This document shows positions 2,726-56,958 of a stretch of DNA of 64,000 nt, one piece after another. This DNA comes from Spongiibacter nanhainus (GTDB lineage Bacteria > Pseudomonadota > Gammaproteobacteria > Pseudomonadales > Spongiibacteraceae). The notes beneath the pieces are model-generated. The model was not told where the DNA came from, did no database searches, and was given only the letters and a program-made list of their open reading frames with translations. How positions within the stretch are numbered: position 1 is the first letter of the stretch; each line of letters begins with the position of its first letter. The translations under genes were made by a program, and so were the position numbers. The stretch is from positions 2,693,001 through 2,757,000 of the forward strand of contig NZ_CP066167.1 of assembly GCF_016132545.1 (NCBI RefSeq), in the 5' to 3' direction.

Positions 2726-3679
2726 TTAACTGCGGATTTCTATCACCACTTTGCCCCGACAACGACCGCTGCGGTTGCGGGCGTAAGCAGCGTCACTGTC
2801 GACCAGAGAATACACACTGTCGATAACCGGATGGAGAGCACCCAGTTCGACCAACTCCGTTAAATAGCCCAGGTCCTCACGGTAAGATTCCACCACCACA
2901 CTGTTGGCCTTTTTACCCAGCAGGCGATACAGCGGTGTGGCCACCATAGAGAGCCCCTGCCCACCCGTGGAAATGAAATGACCGTTTTCACCGAGCAAAA
3001 CCTTACAAGTGAGGGGCGTTTCGTAGGACGTCACGTCATACACGATATCGAACGCACCGGCAGATTTGCGGTAATCGCCCTGGGTGTAATCAATCACGGC
3101 GTCGGCACCCAACTGTTTGACAAACTCCAGGTTACGGGTGCTGCACACGCCGGTTACCTGCATACCCAGGTATTTAGCAATCTGCACGGCCAGAGAGCCC
3201 ACCCCGCCGGAAGCCCCGATAATCAGCACTGTCTTGCCCTGTTCAGCGCCGCCCTTGCGCAAACCCTGTAGCGCCGTCAGCGCCGCCAAAGGCAAGGATG
3301 CCGCCTCGGTAAAACTGAGACTTTTGGGTTTCTTTGCCACGCGCTGTTGATTGATCACCGCCTGCTCGGCCAAAGATGCGGTGCGCAGGCGCATATCCAT
3401 ACCATAGACTTCATCGCCGACATCCAAACCCTGTACTCTCGTCCCTTTATCGACTACGACACCGGCCAAATCATCTCCGAACAAGGGGGGTAGACGCCGG
3501 GTACCCAGCGGGGTAGCGGCCATCGCTAGATGGTAGTTGAGCTTCCAATCTTTGGGGTTTACCGAGGCTGCATGCACCTCCACCAACACGTCTTCATCCC
3601 CCAACGAGAACGGCGCGGGCATCTCGCTAAGAACCAGCTTTGTTTTAGGTCCCCAGCCTGCGGTGGCAATGGCTTTCAT
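2726..3679 (-). CDS. Zinc-type medium-chain quinone oxidoreductase
   Basis: 317 residues from the ATG at 3679, chosen because GGGAG lies about 7 bases upstream; a longer frame to 3706 lacks a better ribosome site. This is an NAD(P)-dependent medium-chain dehydrogenase/reductase of the quinone oxidoreductase (zeta-crystallin-like) group. An N-terminal GroES-like domain (VHAASVNPKDWKL) is followed by a Rossmann domain with the cofactor loop IGASGGVGSLAVQIAKYLG. Structural Cys ligands of true alcohol dehydrogenases are absent, as expected of the quinone reductase group. The substrate is unknown. It is convergent with dapD and downstream of the MBL hydrolase on the same strand. Confidence 0.85.
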   Translation of the reverse strand: MKAIATAGWGPKTKLVLSEMPAPFSLGDEDVLVEVHAASVNPKDWKLNYHLAMAATPLGTRRLPPLFGDDLAGVVVDKGTRVQGLDVGDEVYGMDMRLRTASLAEQAVINQQRVAKKPKSLSFTEAASLPLAALTALQGLRKGGAEQGKTVLIIGASGGVGSLAVQIAKYLGMQVTGVCSTRNLEFVKQLGADAVIDYTQGDYRKSAGAFDIVYDVTSYETPLTCKVLLGENGHFISTGGQGLSMVATPLYRLLGKKANSVVVESYREDLGYLTELVELGALHPVIDSVYSLVDSDAAYARNRSGRCRGKVVIEIRS

Positions 3680-3745
3680 GGCGTTACTCCCTGTTGGTTG
3701 AGGCAATTGCAGCCACGTTATACAAGTCGAGCCCTCGTCCCCTGA

Positions 3746-4609
3746 CTAGGCAACAAGATTGGATATGGACGCACGCTCGTCGGTAACCGCGAACCGCCCT
3801 TTCTGGTCGCGGACCACCCGCCCTATCGCCACGTCGGGGTCATGGGTAAAAAACAGCCGGCCACCACGGGATTCCAGGTCGTCCAGTAGCGCGCGTTTCT
3901 CGTCAATTAAGGCCTCGGGGTAGCGGTCGTAGCCCATGGTGATGGGCAGATGCACCCAGGGCACCCCCGGAATGAGATCCGCGGCGAACACCACTGGCTC
4001 CGACGGCATAAGAATTTCGGTCAGTAACATACCGGGGGTATGCCCACGGCTGGTATGGAAAACGTAGTCTTTCCCCAGCAGCTCGCTATGCCCGCCCGAC
4101 AGCACCTGTAAGCGCCCCGATGCCGACAGTAACTCGGGCAACTCCGGGATGAAGGACGCCCGGTCCCTTGGGTGAGGCTGTTTGGCACGGGTCCAGGCGT
4201 CTTCACTCACCACTATCTGCGCATTGGGGAACAGTAACTCGGGCACATAGCCCTCGCGCCACGGCTGCAACAGGCCGCCGGCATGGTCAAAGTGCAAATG
4301 CGAGAGCACGATCAGGTCGATATCTGTGTGCGACAAACCCTGCCCAGCCAACTCGTTCAATAGTCGGTGTTCCCTTTCAACCAAGCCGTAACGCTGAGCC
4401 AAATCCGGGGCGAAAAAAGCGCCCACGCCCACCTCCAGCAAAATATTTCGCCGCTCTTCACGAATGAGCAAACACCGGCACGCCAGAGGGATGTGGTTGT
4501 CCGCGTCGACTTCGACCCAACGGGACCACACCGCCTTGGGCGCATTGCCAAACATCGCGCCGCCGTCCAAGCGCTGCGAATTTCCCAAAAGACTAGTGAG
4601 CGCTTTCAC
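3746..4609 (-). CDS. Metallo-beta-lactamase-fold hydrolase
   Basis: 287 residues with the dinuclear zinc motif HxHxDH (seen in [12 protein letters not shown]) and further metal ligands in [15 protein letters not shown] and the C-terminal FTHDPD. The layout resembles the AHL-lactonase-like part of the MBL superfamily, so a lactone or ester hydrolase is plausible, but the substrate cannot be named. It has no signal peptide and is probably cytosolic. It lies upstream of the quinone oxidoreductase with a 66-bp gap and may share its transcript. Confidence 0.82.
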
Positions 4610-19297: not shown

Positions 19298-20041
19298 CTA
19301 TAGATAAGCGGCGACGGCTTGCTCGATGGCCTCAGCACCCTGCCGCGACACCCAGACAACGATGGCTGTCTGCGCCTGCTGCTTGTCGGGTCGAGCTGGC
19401 AGCGCTGCAGTACCCGTAAAATAAGCGGGCTGTTTTTCTATTGCCATAGCATGTCGTTGATGTGAATCGACAACAAAATCGTGGCACAACTGTCTGCCAC
19501 GATTTTCACCGGCACCAATCTCACTGCATACCCCCATCAGCAGATAGGCGACATGCAGGGTCCACTGCATCTGGCTGGAATCCGCCGGACGATACTGATA
19601 GCGAATACGGCCCGCGCTGGCATCAGTATCAACATTAACCTGCAAACGACCCGCTTTCTGGGAGGTGTGTCGAGGCAAGCGTTGCCCTGCAAAGAAGCCC
19701 CGCCATTCACGGTTATCCACCACAAACCCGGGGGTATACACACGCTCCAAATTCCCCTCCTGATGATGGCGGCGCTGACGCTGGGAATATTCCCTGGACG
19801 CAAAGGAGTCCCGCCACCCCAAGCGATCCCAGTAGTCGACGTGAAATGCCATGGGAATCAGGGTATCAAACAGGCCCGGCGCCGCCTTTAGCCTCGACAA
19901 CCACTGGTCTGCGGGCGGGCAACTGCTGCAGCCCTCGGAGGTAAACAACTCCACCGTTGTGGCGCGCTGCGTGCCACTGTCCAGAGTCAAGGCCTGGGCG
20001 CTTGTCGCCAGAAACAGAGTTATCAAAAGTAGCGCTTTCAT
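19298..20041 (-). CDS. DUF1223 thioredoxin-like secreted protein
   Basis: 247 residues with a short signal peptide (LLITLFLATSAQA) and the DUF1223 hallmark VELFTSEGCSSCPPADQWL, in which a CxxC pair sits where a thioredoxin active site would be. The expected WRDSFASREYSQRQ and HVDYWDRLGW blocks are present. The family is periplasmic and presumed redox-active; its partner is not known. It stands alone between the MOSC gene and dps. Confidence 0.88.
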   Translation of the reverse strand: MKALLLITLFLATSAQALTLDSGTQRATTVELFTSEGCSSCPPADQWLSRLKAAPGLFDTLIPMAFHVDYWDRLGWRDSFASREYSQRQRRHHQEGNLERVYTPGFVVDNREWRGFFAGQRLPRHTSQKAGRLQVNVDTDASAGRIRYQYRPADSSQMQWTLHVAYLLMGVCSEIGAGENRGRQLCHDFVVDSHQRHAMAIEKQPAYFTGTAALPARPDKQQAQTAIVVWVSRQGAEAIEQAVAAYL

Positions 20042-20170
20042 CTCGCTCGTCCGCCCTTGTGAAATCCTTACTACTATGACGGATGGCGGCGGCGCCTGTT
20101 ACATATCCCAGGGTGTCACAAAGACCAGTGCTGTGTGGCCGGGCCAAGCTCAACAGCCAAACCCCAAAAT

Positions 20171-20232: not shown

Positions 20233-20703
20233 CTATTGGTTGATCGCGCGCAGCATCCAGGCGGTTTTCTCGTGGATACGCATACGGTCTGACACCAAGG
20301 CAGTGGTGGATTCGTCATCAGCCTCTTGGGCCATTTTCAAAACTTCTCGGCTGGTTCGCACCACTTGTTCATGTCCAGCCCGAAGAATGTCCACCATCTC
20401 CTCCGCCGACGGTACACCGTCCACTTCTTTCACTGCACTGAGCTTGGCAAAGGCGGAATACGTCCCCGGTGCCGCGACGCCCAGAGTACGGATGCGCTCG
20501 GCAATGTCATCCACAGCTGTCGCCAGCTCGGTGTAGTGTTCTTCAAACATCAGGTGTAGGTCCCGGAAACGTGGACCGGTAACGTTCCAGTGGAAGTTGT
20601 GTGTCTGAAGGTACAGCGTGTAGGAGTCGGCGAGAAGGCGGCTCAGGCCTTCAGCGACTTGCTGACGATCACTTTCGTTAATACCTATATCAATCTTCTT
20701 CAT
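20233..20703 (-). CDS. dps: Dps-family DNA-protection ferritin
   Basis: 156 residues matching Dps: [22 protein letters not shown] and [20 protein letters not shown] contain the inter-subunit ferroxidase ligands (His and Asp/Glu). Dps dodecamers oxidise Fe(II) with peroxide and protect DNA in starvation. The N-terminal basic tail is short. The start has a clear AGGAG box. The gene is monocistronic, ending at the terminator at 20171-20194. An inverted pair of repeat elements lies upstream at 20737-20843. Confidence 0.94.
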
Positions 20704-20736: not shown

Positions 20737-20843
20737 GGTGGACATAAAAAGCGATGTCCACCCTACGGGTTCAGATGCGTCATTTGCTGTGTTGTTCCAC
20801 ACACCTACCTAACAGTAGGGCGGACACCGCTTCTCTGTCCGCC
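20737..20843. repeat. Inverted pair of GTAGGGyGGACA repeat elements
   Basis: Two roughly 30-bp imperfect palindromes, 20737-20766 and 20815-20843, are inverted copies of each other. Each half contains a (G)TGGACAT...ATGTCCAC-type stem. The same element recurs as a tandem array at 36271-36775 and as another inverted pair at 56885-56958. Together they behave like a REP/BIME family. The pair fills most of the 303-bp gap between dps and the lipoprotein gene, which otherwise shows nothing I can support. Confidence 0.85.
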
Positions 20844-33543: not shown

Positions 33544-35322
33544 TCAGGCCGCGTGGCTATCCGTATCACTCGCTGACTGCGGCCCGGCTGATTGCAGCCC
33601 GGCTGACCGCAGCCCGGAACTATCAATATAACGCTTGTAACGGGCTGGCTTCATTTGTTCAATATCGACCATCACCAAACCGTCGATACAGTCGGCAAAA
33701 TCCGGGTCGATATTAAAGTCGGCAAAGCTAACGCCACCAGGCTCACAGAGTTCGGTGTACTGTTTATACAACGTGGGCACTGCACAATCCATAGCGCTCA
33801 ACTGAGCTTTAAGGCGCGCGAACTCCTCATTGTAATTCTCACCGGTAAAGGGCGATGGCTGATGCTCGGAGCGGTAAGGGAGCTTGGCACTAGCCCATTG
33901 CTCAGGTGCGACAAAATGCGCTTGGTAGAACTGCACAATCAGATCTTTGGCTGCTTTGGGCATACTGTCGCTCAGACTGACCGGACCAAACAAATAGCGC
34001 ACATCCCGGTGGCGACGAAGGTAGGTCCCTACCCCTTGCCACAGGTAGTCCAGAGCGCTGCGGCCCCAGTAGCGGGGCTGAACGAAACTGCGGCCCAGCT
34101 CTGCACCCTGCTCAAATATTGGCCCGCTCAACCCAGGGTCGTAGTCAAACAAGGTTGCGCTGTAAAACTGCTGATCACCTTCCAGGCTCGCACCACGTTT
34201 CAATCGGTAGGCGCCCACCAGCTCCAATTGATTTTCATCCCACAGCACAATGTGGTCATAGTAAGCGTCGTAAGTATCCACATCCCTGCGGTGGCCAGTG
34301 CCTTCCCCCACCGCCCTGAAGCTGATTTCCCGGAGGCGGCCGATCTCCCGCATGATCACGCAATCACCGCTGTACTGGTAGCAGTAGATCTCCATACCGT
34401 CCCGCGTTGTGCCCAGCTTTTCGCACTGGCGGATCGCCCGGCGCAGTAGCTGACGGTCCTCGGGATGGGCAACCGGCTGTGCTTCCGGCATAAAACAGGG
34501 CTCGCCGCGGCGACGACGCTTACCCAGCTTGTAAATATGCTTTTTAAACAGACGCACTTTAGCCTGAGCAGTCAGCGGCAAATTGCGGTGCAAGTCGGTC
34601 TCGATAGCGGGACCGATAGTGACCCTCACCGTGCGATTGTTCTGCTTAAACATTTCCCGAATCAGCCACAACGTAGACAGCGGCTTGGCCAGCATCGACA
34701 GGGCGTAAAAGAACACCGAATTGCGGGCATTGATATGTACCGGCAGAATCGGCGCATTGGTTTTTTCGGCAAATTTGATAAAACCGTTGTGCCAGCGACC
34801 GTCGCGAATACCGGCAGGGCTAAACCGGGAGACCTCCCCGGCCGGAAAGATAATCACAGCGCCTTCACCTTTAAGGTGATCCTGAATCGCCTTTAAATTC
34901 TCTTTGCGGTTGGCTTTGCCGCTCATATTATCCACCGGCAGCAGCATACTGCGCAGAGGTTTAATGGCGTAGAGCACATCGTTGGCCACCACTTTGACGT
35001 CGCCGCGAACCTCCGACACCAACTTCAGTAGCGCCAAGCCGTCCAAACTGCCGATGGGATGGTTGGAGATAATCACCACCCGCCCAGACACCGGAATGCG
35101 CTCCTTATCCAGGGCGCTGACAGCATAGCCAAAATCAAAGAAATCCAAGACCTGCTCGACAAAATCCAGGCCCTGTAGATGCGGATAGTCCTTTTCAAAC
35201 TGCTTGAATTCGGCCTCGTGAAACAGGTACTGCAGCAAAGCCGCGAGGGTCTTGCGAATATGGGGATTACCTGTTGCCAAGCGGGGAAAGCGTTCTTCAA
35301 TAACGGCATCGACGGAAATCAT
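33544..35322 (-). CDS. Bifunctional PlsC-GNAT acyltransferase (OlsF-like)
   Basis: 592 residues with two catalytic domains. The N-terminal half is a PlsC-type O-acyltransferase (VVIISNHPIGSLDGLALL; the usual HX4D box appears here as H-X5-D, as in this sub-family). FPAGEVSRFSP is its glycerophosphate block. The C-terminal half is a GNAT-like N-acyltransferase with ELVGAYRLKRG and ELGRSFVQPRYWGRSALDYLW, as in OlsB. That order matches OlsF, which makes ornithine lipid in one protein. The extreme C-terminus carries a 15-bp tandem repeat giving AGLQSAG-type residues. It follows the LpxH-like gene after 9 bp. Confidence 0.86.
   Translation of the reverse strand: MISVDAVIEERFPRLATGNPHIRKTLAALLQYLFHEAEFKQFEKDYPHLQGLDFVEQVLDFFDFGYAVSALDKERIPVSGRVVIISNHPIGSLDGLALLKLVSEVRGDVKVVANDVLYAIKPLRSMLLPVDNMSGKANRKENLKAIQDHLKGEGAVIIFPAGEVSRFSPAGIRDGRWHNGFIKFAEKTNAPILPVHINARNSVFFYALSMLAKPLSTLWLIREMFKQNNRTVRVTIGPAIETDLHRNLPLTAQAKVRLFKKHIYKLGKRRRRGEPCFMPEAQPVAHPEDRQLLRRAIRQCEKLGTTRDGMEIYCYQYSGDCVIMREIGRLREISFRAVGEGTGHRRDVDTYDAYYDHIVLWDENQLELVGAYRLKRGASLEGDQQFYSATLFDYDPGLSGPIFEQGAELGRSFVQPRYWGRSALDYLWQGVGTYLRRHRDVRYLFGPVSLSDSMPKAAKDLIVQFYQAHFVAPEQWASAKLPYRSEHQPSPFTGENYNEEFARLKAQLSAMDCAVPTLYKQYTELCEPGGVSFADFNIDPDFADCIDGLVMVDIEQMKPARYKRYIDSSGLRSAGLQSAGPQSASDTDSHAA
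33577..33621. repeat. 15-bp tandem repeat in the OlsF-like 3' end
   Basis: Three consecutive 15-bp units (33577-33591, 33592-33606, 33607-33621) share a GCAGCCCGG core, with the third unit diverging at its end. In the protein they give a low-complexity SAGLQSAGPQSAS-like tail. The unit length keeps the frame, so copy number could vary between strains. Confidence 0.8.
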
Positions 35323-36150: not shown

Positions 36151-36270
36151 CGTGATGCACCCTCGCTATGCATTTGGCGACATGCTATCGATGACAAGTG
36201 ACAGAAAAGGGACTCTTTGGCGACATATTTATGACAAGTCACCACGTTTGTAACAGAGGCGAGACAAGAC

Positions 36271-36775
36271 CGTAGGGCGGACACGGTGTTTTGTTTCCAC
36301 CACATCCACTTCGATGTGGGCACCATCTCGGGAGCGATTCGGTGGACACAAAGGGCGATGTCCACCCTACAGGTGAAGGGTATCCAACGTACGAACAAGG
36401 CCGTAGGGCGGACACCGGTTTTGTGTCCGCCGCGTCACCCTCGATGTGGGCACCAGCGTGGCTTCGATCCGGTGGACATAAAAGGCGATGTCCACCCTAC
36501 AGGTGAAGGGTATCCAGCGTACGAACAAGGCCGTAGGGCGGACACCGGTTTTGTGTCCGCCGCGTCACCCTCTATGTGGGCACCGGCGTGGTTTCGATTC
36601 GGTGGACATAAAAGGCGATGTCCACCCTACAGGTGAAGGGTATCCAGCGTACGAACAAGGCCGTAGGGCGGACACCGGTTTTGTGTCCGCCGCGTCACCC
36701 TCGATGTGGGCACCGGCGTGGCTTCGATCCGGTGGACATAAAAGACGCTGTCCACCCTACAGGTAGAGGATATCC
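36271..36775. repeat. Tandem array of four 130-bp repeat units
   Basis: Units begin with CGTAGGGCGGACA at 36271, 36402, 36532 and 36662, a 130-131-bp period. Each unit holds two inverted GTAGGGyGGACA-type palindromes (one ending GTCCACCCTAC) and a spacer CAGGTGAAGGGTATCCAACG. The first unit is the most divergent. The last unit runs into the 3' end of hvfC, where CAGGTAGAGGATATCCAACT encodes the last residues of that protein; the spacer therefore looks like a copy of this end. Together with short flanks this explains the 606 bp between the LpxH-like gene and hvfC; open frames here are spurious. Confidence 0.9.
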
Positions 36776-37491
36776 AACTCTAAGAGCTGCGCCAGAAGGG
36801 CTTTGCCATGCTCGATAATTGCGGCCGGCTCCCCACCGATCTCTTCCGCGATACGCTGCAGTGCGGCAGCCGGCGTCGGTGCATCGGCGTCGAGCAATTC
36901 CAATAACCGCAGTGTCACTGGGTTGCTCTCCAGAAACGCCACTTCATCGCTGCGGTTGCGATACACCACGATACAGGTTGGCGCGTCACTGGCTTTGGCA
37001 GGTTGAAATTGGGAACTGATTAAATGGACGGGAAATGAAAAGGCCAAGGGCCAGGCCAAGGGCGACACCTGCAATGGAGCATTCAGCAAATCATCGGGCA
37101 GGTCTTGGGCGGGAGGCAGGTCTTCTTCTGCCACATCCAACGCCAACTCCACCCACTCATAATAGGCCAGTTCCCGCAAAAATACGGGATCAGAGGCGCA
37201 CTGGCGTTCGTGGTTCAGGTAGTCGAGAAACTCCTCGGCGAGGTCGACAAAATAGGGGCTCTGACAGCGGTGCCGACGCATAAAGTCCCGCACCATTTGC
37301 AGCCAAGTCTCATCGTTGAAGATGCTTCTCAATACCGGGAAGCTATTGCTTAAAGAGCCCTCGATGTTTTTAAACAATAGATCTCGATAGATACCCAGCC
37401 GACGGGATTCAATACCCGCCGGCCCGGCGTTTTCGAGCGGATCTCTGACAAACTCGGTCAGCGATTTTTGCACGCGCTGAAAATCTTGCAC
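36757..37491 (-). CDS. hvfC: HvfC/BufC-type DUF2063 partner protein
   Basis: 244 residues starting at GTG 37491, immediately after the hvfB stop (TGAGTG). The N-terminal part matches the DUF2063 domain (RRLGIYRDLLFKNIEGSLSNSFPVL and FRRHRCQSPYF-like residues). The C-terminal half is the PqqD-like segment found in these partners (residues about 165-244, SDEVAFLESNPVTLRLLELL). In known HvfABC and bufferin systems this protein binds the precursor peptide and the DUF692 enzyme to guide modification. Its last codons lie within the tandem repeat array. Confidence 0.9.
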   Translation of the reverse strand: MQDFQRVQKSLTEFVRDPLENAGPAGIESRRLGIYRDLLFKNIEGSLSNSFPVLRSIFNDETWLQMVRDFMRRHRCQSPYFVDLAEEFLDYLNHERQCASDPVFLRELAYYEWVELALDVAEEDLPPAQDLPDDLLNAPLQVSPLAWPLAFSFPVHLISSQFQPAKASDAPTCIVVYRNRSDEVAFLESNPVTLRLLELLDADAPTPAAALQRIAEEIGGEPAAIIEHGKALLAQLLELDILYL

Positions 37492-38364
37492 TCAGCCCGC
37501 CCTCACCTGCTTTGCACGGGTAGGTGCTGATGCCACACGGGCCTGGGCAACGCGGATCTGCGCCACCTCCGCCAACAACTCGCTCATCGGTGGAAAATTA
37601 AAATCCCGCTCCAGTAAGGTGGGGACAGGCCCGCAGCGCTGGTAAACCTCATCCAACAAGGTCCACACCGGATCGATCACATCGCTACCGTGGGTGTCGA
37701 CCCGCAAGTCTTCCGCTTCTTCGTAGTGACCGGCAATATGCAGGTAGCTCACCCGCTCCAGCGGTAAGCCGTCGATAAAGCCCAATGGATCGTAACGGTG
37801 ATTAATGCTGTTGACGTAGACATTGTTAACATCCAACAGCAAGCCGCAGTCTGACTCCCTGGCCACCGCCGCGATAAAGTCGCTCTCGCTCATTTGCTGT
37901 CCCGGTGCGGCGTAGTAGGAGGCGTTTTCCAGCAACATGGGGCGGCCGAGAATATCCTGCACCTGCTTGACCCGCTCGGCCACGTGGCGCACTGCCTCTT
38001 CGGTAAAGGGGATCGGCATCAGGTCGTAAAGGTGCCCCTCATCGCCGCAGTAGGTCAGGTGCTCGCTGTAAAGGGGGCACTGATAGCGGTCTATAAAATC
38101 CCGCACCGCCGTTACCAAGTCGGTATCCAGCGGCGCAAAGCCGCCGATATTAAGGGATAAACCGTGAAGGGTTACCGGATAGCGTTCGGCAATCTCGTCA
38201 AAGTCCCGGCGAAAACGCCCGCCCAGTTTGAGCCAGTTTTCCGGGGCCACCTCGACAAAATCCAGCTCATCGCCAGATAGAGACTGAAACGCGCCCATCA
38301 GGGCGCGCCGCAGTCCAAGACCGGCAGATGCCGGTTTAAGGGAGTTGGGCATTAGCTGCCGCAT
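37492..38364 (-). CDS. hvfB: DUF692 multinuclear non-heme iron oxidative enzyme (MNIO), HvfB-type
   Basis: 290 residues from ATG 38364, with GAGG four bases upstream; a second ATG at 38352 overlaps the hvfA stop (TAATG) and is also possible. The TIM-barrel iron ligand positions of DUF692/MbnB-like enzymes are visible: His67 (LHGLS), His102 (SEHLTY), Glu146 (LLENASY), Asp178 (LLDVNN), His209 and His213 (YLHIAGH), His225 (DTHG) and Glu252 (LLERDF). Such enzymes oxidise Cys in a precursor to oxazolone/thioamide or thiooxazole groups that bind copper. It lies between hvfA and hvfC on one transcript. Confidence 0.93.
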   Translation of the reverse strand: MRQLMPNSLKPASAGLGLRRALMGAFQSLSGDELDFVEVAPENWLKLGGRFRRDFDEIAERYPVTLHGLSLNIGGFAPLDTDLVTAVRDFIDRYQCPLYSEHLTYCGDEGHLYDLMPIPFTEEAVRHVAERVKQVQDILGRPMLLENASYYAAPGQQMSESDFIAAVARESDCGLLLDVNNVYVNSINHRYDPLGFIDGLPLERVSYLHIAGHYEEAEDLRVDTHGSDVIDPVWTLLDEVYQRCGPVPTLLERDFNFPPMSELLAEVAQIRVAQARVASAPTRAKQVRAG

Positions 38365-38735
38365 TTAGCCTCGCCACATTTGCCTTCGGAGGCTTTCTTG
38401 TCACCACCGCACTTGGCCTCGCCGCATTTACCTTCCCGGGCTTTATCTTCACCGCATTTGGCTTCACCACACTTTCCTTCCATGGCTTTCTTTTCGCCGC
38501 ACTTGGCCTCGCCGCATTTGCCTTCATGGGCTTTCTTTTCACCGCATTTAGCTTCGCCGCATTTGCCTTCCCCGGTTTTGCCATGGGCGTCGGCGAGCTG
38601 ATAACCCGCACTCAACTGAGTGGCGGCAAACGGATTACTATCAGCCATCGCTGGGGAGATTGCGGTTGCCAGAAGTGCCGCACCAAAAGCAGAGGCAACA
38701 GGTTTCTTACTAAAGGATTTTTTCATTGAAGCCAT
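38352..38735 (-). CDS. hvfA: HvfA-type RiPP precursor with five EGKCGEAKCG repeats
   Basis: 127 residues from ATG 38735, with GAGGAG eight bases upstream. A Sec signal peptide (about residues 1-31, core AFGAALLATAISPAMA) is followed by a conserved linker NPFAATQLSAGYQL. Then come five copies of EGKCGEAKCG starting at residues 56, 71, 86, 101 and 117, separated by EKKA-, EDKA- or GDKKA-type spacers. Cysteines lie at 59, 64, 74, 79, 89, 94, 104, 109, 120 and 125. The EGKCG motif is the modification site of HvfA peptides, where the DUF692 enzyme installs oxazolone/thioamide pairs that bind copper. The product is expected to be exported. Its 45-bp DNA period indicates growth by repeat duplication. 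Confidence 0.93.
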   Translation of the reverse strand: MASMKKSFSKKPVASAFGAALLATAISPAMADSNPFAATQLSAGYQLADAHGKTGEGKCGEAKCGEKKAHEGKCGEAKCGEKKAMEGKCGEAKCGEDKAREGKCGEAKCGGDKKASEGKCGEAKCGS

Positions 38736-38773: not shown

Positions 38774-38893
38774 AAAATGATCGCGGTTGCCGCGCCAGCC
38801 GGTTTAGCATAGCTCAAAAATTTGGATTAGACCGGCCTTATTCCCCACTACGTGAAGAACGGGCAACCCGTTTTCATGGATTAGACGCCAGCT

Positions 38894-41800
38894 TCAGGTG
38901 ATTGTTACAGCCTCTTGCAGTTCTTTCCAAAGAATTTTCAATCGCTTCTCTGATACCGGTGCCTGGGTACCCAATTCCTGGGCAAACAAAGACACCCGGA
39001 ACTCCTCCAGCTGCCAGCGGTACTGCTCCACCAGCGGGTGCCTGGCAATCCCCTCGCCCTTGCGCTCAATCAGCGCCTGCAACTGGGCCTGAAGCGGCTC
39101 CAGAGTCAAGGTGCACTGACGGTCCCGGGTGAAATGGCCCCGCAACTTGTCGATACGTTGCTGCACCGCCTTTAAATAACGGGGGTACTGCTGTAAGCGC
39201 TCGCTATCGACCGCAAGAATAAACTCTCCTTCAAACAAGGCACTAAGCTGATTGTTAATATCCGCCACACTGTGGGCCCAGCTCAGGTTGTTGGCTTTTT
39301 TCAGGGTCCGGCGAACGCCGGCATAGAGGGCCAGCACTTCCTTCATCAAGGCCTCGTAGGCCTCCAGTGTGGCGACAAATTCACTGCGCCCCTGCTCCCA
39401 GACGGCATCAAATTCCTCGGCACGCCGGGGCAGACTACCGGCGCTGATGGCGAAGGCATCTCTGGCAGCCGCCAGCAGCATCATCTCCACCCAGCGGTGG
39501 CGATCACCGCCAATCGTGGCGAACTGCAACTGGTGTTCGTTGCCCCGCAGCACCTTGCCCCGGGCCTGCTTGACCTGCTGGGGCAGGCGCAGCAATAACA
39601 GCCGCAGCACACCGCGCTCGCTGAGACGATTGGCTTCGGCCTCGGACTCCGCCAAGCCCAGTTCGGCGGCATCGCCCTTGTCTCGCAAGCAGGGATACGC
39701 CGTCAGGGTGGCACCACTTTGTTTGAAGCGGTGTTGGTCGGCCATTTTGCCAAAGTCCCACTCAGTCACCGCCCGGGTCTCGAACTGATTGCCGGTTTCC
39801 TGACTGATACTTTTTTGCACCCGGTCCGCCAGTTGTGAGCGCAGCCGAGCTATATCGCGGCCGGCGGCGAGCTTTTTACCGGCATCGTCCAACACCCGGA
39901 TATTCATTCGGTAGTAGTCTTCCAGCTCCGCCACCGGCCAATCCGTCAAAGCGATATCGACATTGCTAATCTGCTGCAGGGCCTCGGCCAGGGCCGGCAA
40001 CAAGGGCTGGTCTCCCACCTGCATGCGCTGTAAAGCCCGGTCCACATAATCCGGTACCGGCACCAGCTGTTTGCGCTGGGCCTTGGGCAGCATTTTTACC
40101 AGGGCAATGCACTTGTCCCGGAGAATCCCCGGCACCATCCAGTCGAGCCGCCCCTCGGGGAGGGTCGCCAGCTGCCCCAGGGGCACAGACACAGTCACCC
40201 CATCGGCAGGGTGGCCCGGCTCAAAGTGATAGCTGAGCGGATAACTGACGCCCCCGGCGGTCAATTGGTCGGGGAACTCGGCACCGGCGTCGTCCTGGTG
40301 ACGCATCACATCGCCCCGGGTCATCTTTAGGGCTTCGGCGCCGGCGGATTTCTTCAGCCAACTCTCAAGATGCTTGGCGGTAGTGATGCCCTCCGGCAAG
40401 CGCTGGTCGTAAAAACGGAACAATTCCTCGTCGGAGACCAGAATATCTCGCCGCCGGGTTTTGTCCTCCAGCCGGGTCACCTCGGCGATCAGCGCGCGGT
40501 TGTGCTTAAAGAACTTGGCCGGCCCTCGATAACGCCCCTCCACCAGGCCCTGGCGGATAAGAATTTCCCGGGACAGCACCGGGTCGATTGGGCCGTAGTG
40601 CACACGATGGCGATCGCGGATGGTGAGGCCGTGCAGCAGGGTTTGCTCGTAGGCCATGACCCGGCCAGTCTTGGCCTGCCAATGGGGCTCGTAGTAGTTG
40701 CGCTTGAGCAGGGAGTCGTTGATACCAAATACCCAGTCAGGCTCAATTCTGGCCACACAGCGAGCATAGAGCTGGGTGGTCTCCGCCAGCTCTGCCGCTA
40801 CAATCCACTTGGGGCTTTTCTTAAACTGGGAGGAGCCGGGGAAGATGCGCAGTTTGCGGTTGCGGGCCCCCAGGTATTCCCGGTCGTCCCCTTTGACCGC
40901 CAACTGGCTGAGAAAACCCGGCAACAGCGCCTGGTGAAGACTGTCGTAGTCCGCTGGCTGCGGGTTTTGTTTGAGTTTGAGCTGACGGCACATGACCGCC
41001 AGCTGGTAGTGCACTTCCCGCCACTCCCGCATCCGGGTCCAGGATAAGAACTCCTTCTGACACAGTTTGCGCCATTGGTTGTTAGACAATGCCTGACGCT
41101 GCTCCTCGGCGTAGTCCCACAGCGCCACAAAAGCGAGAAAATCTGACTCGGGATGCCAGAAGCGGCGATGTTTTTCGTCGGCAGCCTGCTGTTTGTCGGC
41201 GGGACGCTCCCGGGGGTCCTGAATACTCAGGGCACTGGCGATAATCAGCATCTCCCGCAGGCAGCTTTTCTCTGCCGCCGCCAGCAGCAGCCGACCGATG
41301 CGTGGGTCCACCGGGAATTTGCCCAGCGCCTTGCCCCGCTCGGTAAGCTTGCCCTGCTGACCTTTTTTGCCGCTGTGGACCGCACCCAGCTCTTCCAACA
41401 GGCCAAAGCCGTCGCGGATCAGGCGGTGGTCCGGCGGATCGACAAAGGGAAATTTGCGGATATCCCCCAGGCCCAGCTGCAACATCTGCAAAATCACCGC
41501 CGCCAGGTTAGTGCGCTGAATCTCCGGCTCGGTAAATGCCGGGCGGCGATCAAAATCCTCTTCGCTATAAAGACGGTAGGCGATACCCGGCGCCACCCGG
41601 CCACAGCGACCGGCACGCTGGTTGGCACTGGCCTGGGACACCGGCTCAATGGGCAGCCGCTGCACTTTGCTGCGTATGCTGTAGCGACTGACCCGGGCGG
41701 TGCCGGCATCGATAACATAGCGAATGCCCGGCACGGTAAGAGAGGTTTCCGCTACGTTAGTGGCCAACACCACCCGCCAGCCACGCCGCCCCCGCAGATC

Positions 41801-56884: not shown

Positions 56885-56958
56885 GGCGGACATAAAAAAC
56901 GATGTCCGCCCTACCTTTATGGACCCTGTAGGGTGGACATCGCTTTTTATGTCCGTCC
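56885..56958. repeat. Inverted pair of GTAGGGyGGACA repeat elements
   Basis: Two inverted copies, 56885-56914 and 56928-56958, of the element also found at 20737-20843 and in the array at 36271. They lie between the M16 stop and the amidohydrolase terminator, with a 13-bp centre between the halves. Confidence 0.85.

Follow-up and report, generated by a model that had tools for sequence, protein, structure and literature searches.

Three consecutive genes, hvfA, hvfB, and hvfC, lie on the minus strand of the window (the whole 64-kb stretch of DNA that was analyzed), together with the features collected in Table 1. The three open reading frames that an earlier note had described from the sequence (36757-37491, 37492-38364, and 38352-38735) are all present at those coordinates, and its reading of them as an HvfABC-type RiPP operon was borne out by NCBIfam profile searches, in which each protein matched a curated family over its cut-off. 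HvfA matched through the KCGExKCG_twice domain, which places it in the HvfA family, and fell below the cut-off of the full-length HvfA equivalog NF050188 (59 versus 95 bits); judged by the latter model, it is a member of the wider family and not HvfA proper. HvfC has the make-up of HvfC (PME type 1), a DUF2063 domain plus an RRE-type C-terminal domain, and Pfam matches among the operon proteins included PF05114 (350.1 bits) and PF09836 (86.4 bits).

Table 1. Features of the hvfABC operon and of its predicted regulon partner in the window.
Feature	Coordinates	Strand	Description
hvfA	38352..38735	-	exported precursor peptide, 127 aa, ten Cys; NF050137 103.1 bits (cut-off 19.5)
Sec signal peptide of HvfA, residues 1-31	38643..38735	-	by eye; likely cleavage after AMA
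Leader motif NPFAATQLSAGY	38601..38636	-	F-x4-[LMI]-x2-G-[YF], directly behind the signal peptide
Five EGKCGEAKCG units	38358..38570	-	38570-38526, 38525-38481, 38480-38436, 38435-38388, 38387-38358
hvfB	37492..38352	-	MNIO (DUF692) peptide maturase; start probably 38352; NF003818 (equivalog) 424.8 bits (cut-off 360); 3BWW E 5.4e-82
hvfC	36757..37491	-	DUF2063 + RRE-type partner protein; GTG start directly after hvfB stop; NF050145 287.6 bits (cut-off 142); PF09836, PF22106
Predicted ECF sigma promoter of hvfABC, TGTAAC-N16-CGTC	38884..38909	-	overlaps hrpA stop
Second predicted TGTAAC-N16-CGTC site	20078..20103	-	first base 62 nt before DUF1223 start
DUF1223 protein, CSSC motif	19298..20041	-	PF06764 162.7 bits; predicted member of the hvfABC regulon

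The hvfB frame is real, but its upstream end at 38364 lies inside hvfA, and the probable start is the ATG at 38352, which overlaps the hvfA stop by one base (TAATG). Because of this overlap, and because hvfC begins right behind the hvfB stop, the three genes almost surely form a single transcript. The operon had been called complete: hvfA, hvfB, and hvfC are indeed there, but hvfX is absent and located elsewhere on the chromosome. No doxX match was found within the 64-kb window, and hvfX is thus not in the operon as it would be in HvfABCX. On these family matches, the operon is of a known RiPP kind, HvfABC / oxazolin. Two other identities were rejected: methanobactin, for which HvfB scored 48.9 bits against the cut-off of 325 for the MbnB equivalog TIGR04159, and a role of the enzymes in phage defense, for which HvfB and HvfC had no PADLOC match at E 0.001.

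The iron ligands expected of an MNIO are in place in HvfB (286 residues). Nine positions (H98, E142, D174, N177, H205, D219, H221, E248, and D250) align with H91, E135, D165, N168, H194, D209, H211, E238, and D240 of the MbnB chain 7dz9, the set named as ligand or catalytic residues of VcMbnB (PMC8888699). We infer that 7dz9 is VcMbnB because the residue numbers agree with that paper. A tenth ligand position, H63 (for H55), is supported by the 3BWW alignment only; an alignment of three sequences shows no variation at any of the ten.

Other repeats occur in the window. Directly after hvfC (36264-36778), a palindromic intergenic repeat (CCTGTAGGGTGGACAT..TATGTCCACC) occurs as four 130-bp copies in tandem, one of which folds well as RNA (z -2.69); the core recurs at 20737-20769 and 56925-56957. 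ORF 33544-35322, acyltransferase-like by eye, has a 15-bp repeat in three copies (33572-33617) at its C-terminal end.

A predicted signal peptide and a conserved leader motif open HvfA

Signal peptides are cleaved according to the A-x-A rule, and the likely site in HvfA is given in Table 1. An exported precursor with a copper-binding role, as had been proposed, is supported by homology. Sec signals have been described for the precursor family (PMC12452194).

To describe the family, we used two sets of precursor ORFs. The wider set holds 107 ORFs of 60 to 259 residues with at least three [KRS]CG from all loci fetched; it includes near-duplicates and two truncated ORFs (L022 and L062), and shares computed from it are partly circular because many loci were fetched with the KCGExKCG model itself. 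The cleaner set comes from loci fetched by HvfB alone, namely the best 80 of at least 553 relatives; 67 of these loci yielded 68 ORFs, and 13 had none by the same criterion, with some contigs ending just before hvfB. The leader motif was present in 97 of the 107 ORFs of the partly motif-selected set, compared with 0.1 of 107 when the N-termini were shuffled, in 61 of the 68 ORFs from HvfB-fetched loci, and in all 14 unlinked precursors of the genus. At least four of the ten ORFs without the motif as written deviate through a one-residue insertion. We regard the motif as a possible recognition site for HvfC. As an argument against its being the sole site, Haemophilus HvfA minus its signal peptide was barely modified (PMC13419390).

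Predicted ECF sigma promoters precede hvfA, hvfX, and a DUF1223 gene

On the window's own chromosome, about 255 kb from the operon, a doxX gene (2,986,416) is accompanied by an ECF sigma gene (2,987,122). The DoxX protein is HvfX by NCBIfam NF050144 (236.5 bits; cut-off 80). An 88-residue ORF after the sigma gene, whose zf-HC2 match is marginal (21.2 bits versus a cut-off of 22.2), is a probable zinc-finger anti-sigma, while the ORF divergent from the pair is by eye drug/metabolite transporter-like and no precursor.

The sequence TGTAAC-N16-CGTC recurs upstream of genes of this pathway. We found 27 matches (26 distinct) in the 390,547 bases of 37 fetched loci, where a first-order Markov model predicts 0.2. 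Each site lies 62 to 242 nt before hvfA (7), before hvfB in loci lacking hvfA there (3), or before doxX (16), with the distances to hvfB and doxX measured to the starts of tblastn matches. In the 330 to 361 bases that surround the hvfA start in the window and 16 relatives, the site was exact in 8 of 17 and had one mismatch in 7; in two (L124 and L121) it was absent within one mismatch. Part of this conservation could be coding, because the -35 element of hvfA shares bases with codons of hrpA (Val-Thr). The loci of the best 80 of at least 553 HvfB relatives (628,966 bases) contained eight sites, four before a precursor and four 81 to 103 nt before the hvfB match; five of these are in genus genomes already counted, and three are outside the genus (L033, L065, and L072). 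The window's own genome has four sites, and the reversed pattern, used as a control, has 16, so the count proves nothing and the positions carry the argument: three of the four precede hvfA, hvfX, and the DUF1223 gene. The fourth (2,263,291), opposite a long ORF, is probably a chance match.

The DUF1223 gene was found in 7 of 13 genus genomes searched and is preceded by the site in six of the seven; in three genomes of other families, the gene stands without it. Near the DUF1223 gene is a ferritin-like gene (20233-20703, minus strand; Dps-type by eye), with the core of the palindromic repeat just upstream. An ECF sigma match was present in all 21 genus and family genomes, though in four of them (G006 and three other-genus genomes), at 43 to 45% identity, it may not be the same factor. 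We propose that the sigma factor, encoded beside hvfX and its probable anti-sigma, very likely activates a regulon of hvfABC, hvfX-sigma, and the DUF1223 gene through these promoters. Regulation of this kind is already known from two systems: the DoxX-COG3220-DUF2063 cluster of H. influenzae, which we read as the hvf operon, depends on an ECF factor (RpoE2) and is induced by HOCl (PMC7907618), and the DUF2282-DUF692-DUF2063-DoxX operon of Caulobacter is under ECF control with GTAACC-N16-CGAA (PMC3511200). For the TGTAAC-N16-CGTC site and the split arrangement, we found no published description in the literature surveyed.

We consider it highly probable that the locus is an HvfABC-type operon for a periplasmic Cu(I)-binding peptide, driven by an ECF sigma factor together with hvfX and the DUF1223 gene. 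One report speaks against a copper role: proteomics of Microbulbifer did not detect the related proteins MmrA to MmrC, whether copper was added or not, and its authors are reluctant to assign a role in copper protection (PMC12538549). The same finding would suit a different function, in which the system answers envelope oxidative or hypochlorite stress rather than copper through modified thiols that serve as a sacrificial redox buffer, as would the HOCl induction in H. influenzae (PMC7907618), the small putative zinc-finger ORF behind the sigma gene, and the CSSC motif of the DUF1223 protein. We judge such a function unlikely, as characterized products bind copper (PMC12538549, PMC13097082) and a related operon of Legionella is responsive to gold as well as copper (PMC5413113).

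Precursor genes are found beside hvfBC, beside hvfX-sigma, or both

KCGExKCG_twice was matched in 36 of 57 genomes searched, including 17 of the 18 of the genus (the window's among them), and HvfB exceeded its cut-off in 38, including all 18. In the genus, hvfBC adjoins hrpA in 17 genomes, the exception being G006, while the precursor varies in place. In ten of the 18, hvfA accompanies hvfBC and another precursor is encoded elsewhere; four (G011 to G014) have hvfBC without an adjacent hvfA and a precursor elsewhere, that of G014 being missed by the family model and detected by protein search; and in four (the window's, G001, G006, and G009) family and protein searches found a linked precursor only. 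Within the window's own genome, a DNA pattern search at up to three mismatches and a protein search for a second precursor returned only the known gene and its five units. All 14 unlinked precursors of the genus adjoin doxX and an ECF sigma gene. Because hvfA of this genus may be located next to hvfBC, next to hvfX-sigma, or at both places, HvfBC probably modifies precursors encoded elsewhere as well. For bufferins, earlier work has pointed out precursor genes unlinked to MNIO genes as well as the possibility of multiple substrates (PMC12452194).

We extended the search outside the genus to 11 genomes, chosen since the precursor criterion saw none beside hvfB, and eight had a family match somewhere, a count to be read with three provisos: two of the eight are, to judge from their match coordinates, the genus genomes G012 and G013 already counted, L018 and L025 do carry an adjacent Cys-repeat ORF, and the coordinates of one L025 match place it at the hvfB locus. 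In L025, the precursor beside hvfB (3495-3932) consists mostly of single EGSCG units, and a double-Cys precursor is found elsewhere in the genome. No precursor ORF lies within 1.2 kb upstream of hvfB in L065, L072, or L073. Just before hvfB, these three loci have a 250-residue exported protein, alike by eye (L065 3158-3910, L072 3133-3885, and L073 2002-2754); in L072 and L073 it is preceded by an ORF that is rhodanese-like by eye, and the L072 protein matched nothing in Pfam or NCBIfam at E 0.01.

Both Cys of each repeat belong to the family pattern

The ten Cys in five repeats, each with EGKC followed by GEAKC, were found as described, as five identical EGKCGEAKCG decapeptides. They start at residues 56, 71, 86, 101, and 117 (spacing 15, 15, 15, and 16 residues), which places the Cys at 59/64, 74/79, 89/94, 104/109, and 120/125; the fifth unit is shortened and ends in KCGS. 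Two statements of the earlier note about these repeats need correction. The second Cys (GEAKC) had been taken for a new context, but Cys pairs five apart are the family signature, the model itself being named KCGExKCG_twice, and EAKCG is modified in FonA (PMC13097082). The product that the earlier note named, an oxazolone/thioamide, has since been reassigned by two groups to a 5-thiooxazole, with the mass change unchanged at -4 Da (PMC13419390, PMC13097082).

In the HvfB-fetched loci, every one of the 68 precursor ORFs beside hvfB contains two Cys spaced five residues apart. KCGExKCG (where K is K, R, S, or Q) occurs at least once in all 68 and at least twice in 62, compared with only five that contain EGKCGEAKCG exactly. 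Thus, the decapeptide is a local flavor of a general pattern. It is commoner in the window's genus; of the 107 ORFs in the wider set, which is partly motif-selected, 28 have it, 27 besides the window's.

Work on homologues bears on whether both Cys are modified. Haemophilus HvfA has three AEGKCGEGKCG motifs with all six Cys modified (PMC13419390); each Lys-Cys of the FonA peptide SGEAKCGEGKCGEK undergoes a loss of 4 Da (PMC13097082); and in MmrA the loss of 4H persists when Cys40 or Cys45 is changed to Ala, so that either Cys of a pair can be modified alone (PMC12538549). One could suppose that only one Cys per unit is modified (EGKC or EAKC), the other remaining a free thiol that aids copper binding. 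The two pentads do differ at position 2 in consistent order, with Ala there in 12 of 382 first and 89 of 431 later pentads (runs of at least two in the partly motif-selected 107-ORF set). We hold this to be very improbable given the modified EAKCG of FonA67-80 (PMC13097082), the modification of both Cys in HvfA and MmrA (PMC13419390, PMC12538549), the acceptance by FonBC of substitutions other than Pro at positions 1 and 2, with Arg at position 1 as the exception (PMC13097082), and the equal conservation of both Cys over synonymously diverged units in HvfA. It is normal in this large RiPP family for a repeat to hold two Cys contexts, and the chemistry has been settled in homologues.

The HvfA repeats are old

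Tandem Repeats Finder (TRF) detects the HvfA array with a period of 45, 4.8 copies, and 76% matches (score 233; threshold 50). The 45-bp period had been taken to suggest recent repeat growth, which the codons contradict: synonymous divergence among the units is near random. On average, 4.5 of 10 codons differ per pair of the five units, with no amino acid change in ten comparisons, whereas random choice among synonymous codons, simulated from the codon usage of neighboring genes, predicts 5.18 (sd 0.62), and 15.3% of 3000 simulations were as low as 4.5. This divergence without amino acid change indicates that both Cys of each unit are kept by selection. We conclude that the repeats are old and under selection rather than newly grown, although units 2 and 4, only two codons apart, may represent a later copy. 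That the array is a young DNA expansion with little function, for which the 45-bp period and the similarity of units 2 and 4 could be cited, is barely credible against the near-random codon divergence and the complete absence of amino acid change.

Discussion

The operon is real but ordinary; the split pathway and its regulon are the more useful outcome. In the mechanism that we propose, HvfB, held by HvfC, would oxidize all ten Cys of HvfA to 5-thiooxazoles, with a predicted loss of 40.3 Da, which would take the mature form (calculated for cleavage behind residue 31) from 9690.8 to about 9650.4 Da. Modification would precede Sec export of HvfA, and the thiols of the modified pairs would then bind Cu(I) and buffer periplasmic copper. 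Homologues show the hallmarks of a thiooxazole copper peptide, namely -4 Da per Cys, absorbance at 302 to 305 nm, and copper binding (PMC13419390, PMC13097082, PMC12538549).

For the genus as a whole, we lean toward a copper-peptide pathway that is a dispersed regulon, in which HvfBC would act in trans on the precursor at the hvfX-sigma side. Because the two precursor genes would be interchangeable, either could be lost; the window's species would have kept the enzyme-linked one, lost or never had the sigma-linked one, and would drive hvfA from the distant sigma locus together with the CSSC-containing DUF1223 protein, whose part may be to recharge the peptide or to load it. Genome mining built on the assumption that precursor, enzyme, HvfX, and regulator are neighbors overlooks part of the pathway here. 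The four species with hvfBC and no adjacent hvfA are natural tests of modification in trans and of leader reading by HvfC.

Among characterized systems, HvfABC(X)/oxazolin of nontypeable Haemophilus influenzae resembles the operon in its Sec-type precursor, tandem KCGExKCG pairs, MNIO, and DUF2063-RRE partner (PMC13419390), and an ECF sigma factor controls its cluster, as predicted here (PMC7907618). Its HvfA has six Cys in three AEGKCGEGKCG motifs (PMC13419390), whereas here there are ten Cys in five EGKCGEAKCG units, hvfX lies outside the operon, and the precursor falls under the HvfA equivalog cut-off. MmrABC/bulbicupramide of Microbulbifer shares the three genes, the di-Cys cassettes, and the lack of a protease nearby, and its authors judged the neighboring ORFs non-participating; MmrA differs in having three cassettes after Lys runs in the strain studied and five to eight Cys across strains (PMC12538549). 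Fontiphorin (FonABC) has EAKCG adjoining EGKCG, as here, with -4 Da per Lys-Cys and a 5-thiooxazole in FonA, but it has seven modification sites, and the A pentad comes before the G pentad in the peptide studied (PMC13097082). Finally, the bufferins and the Caulobacter sigma-F regulon are alike in the MNIO, DUF2063, and DoxX proteins, the ECF sigma factor, and a GTAAC-N16 promoter, and differ in their DUF2282 precursors and -10 element (PMC12452194, PMC3511200).
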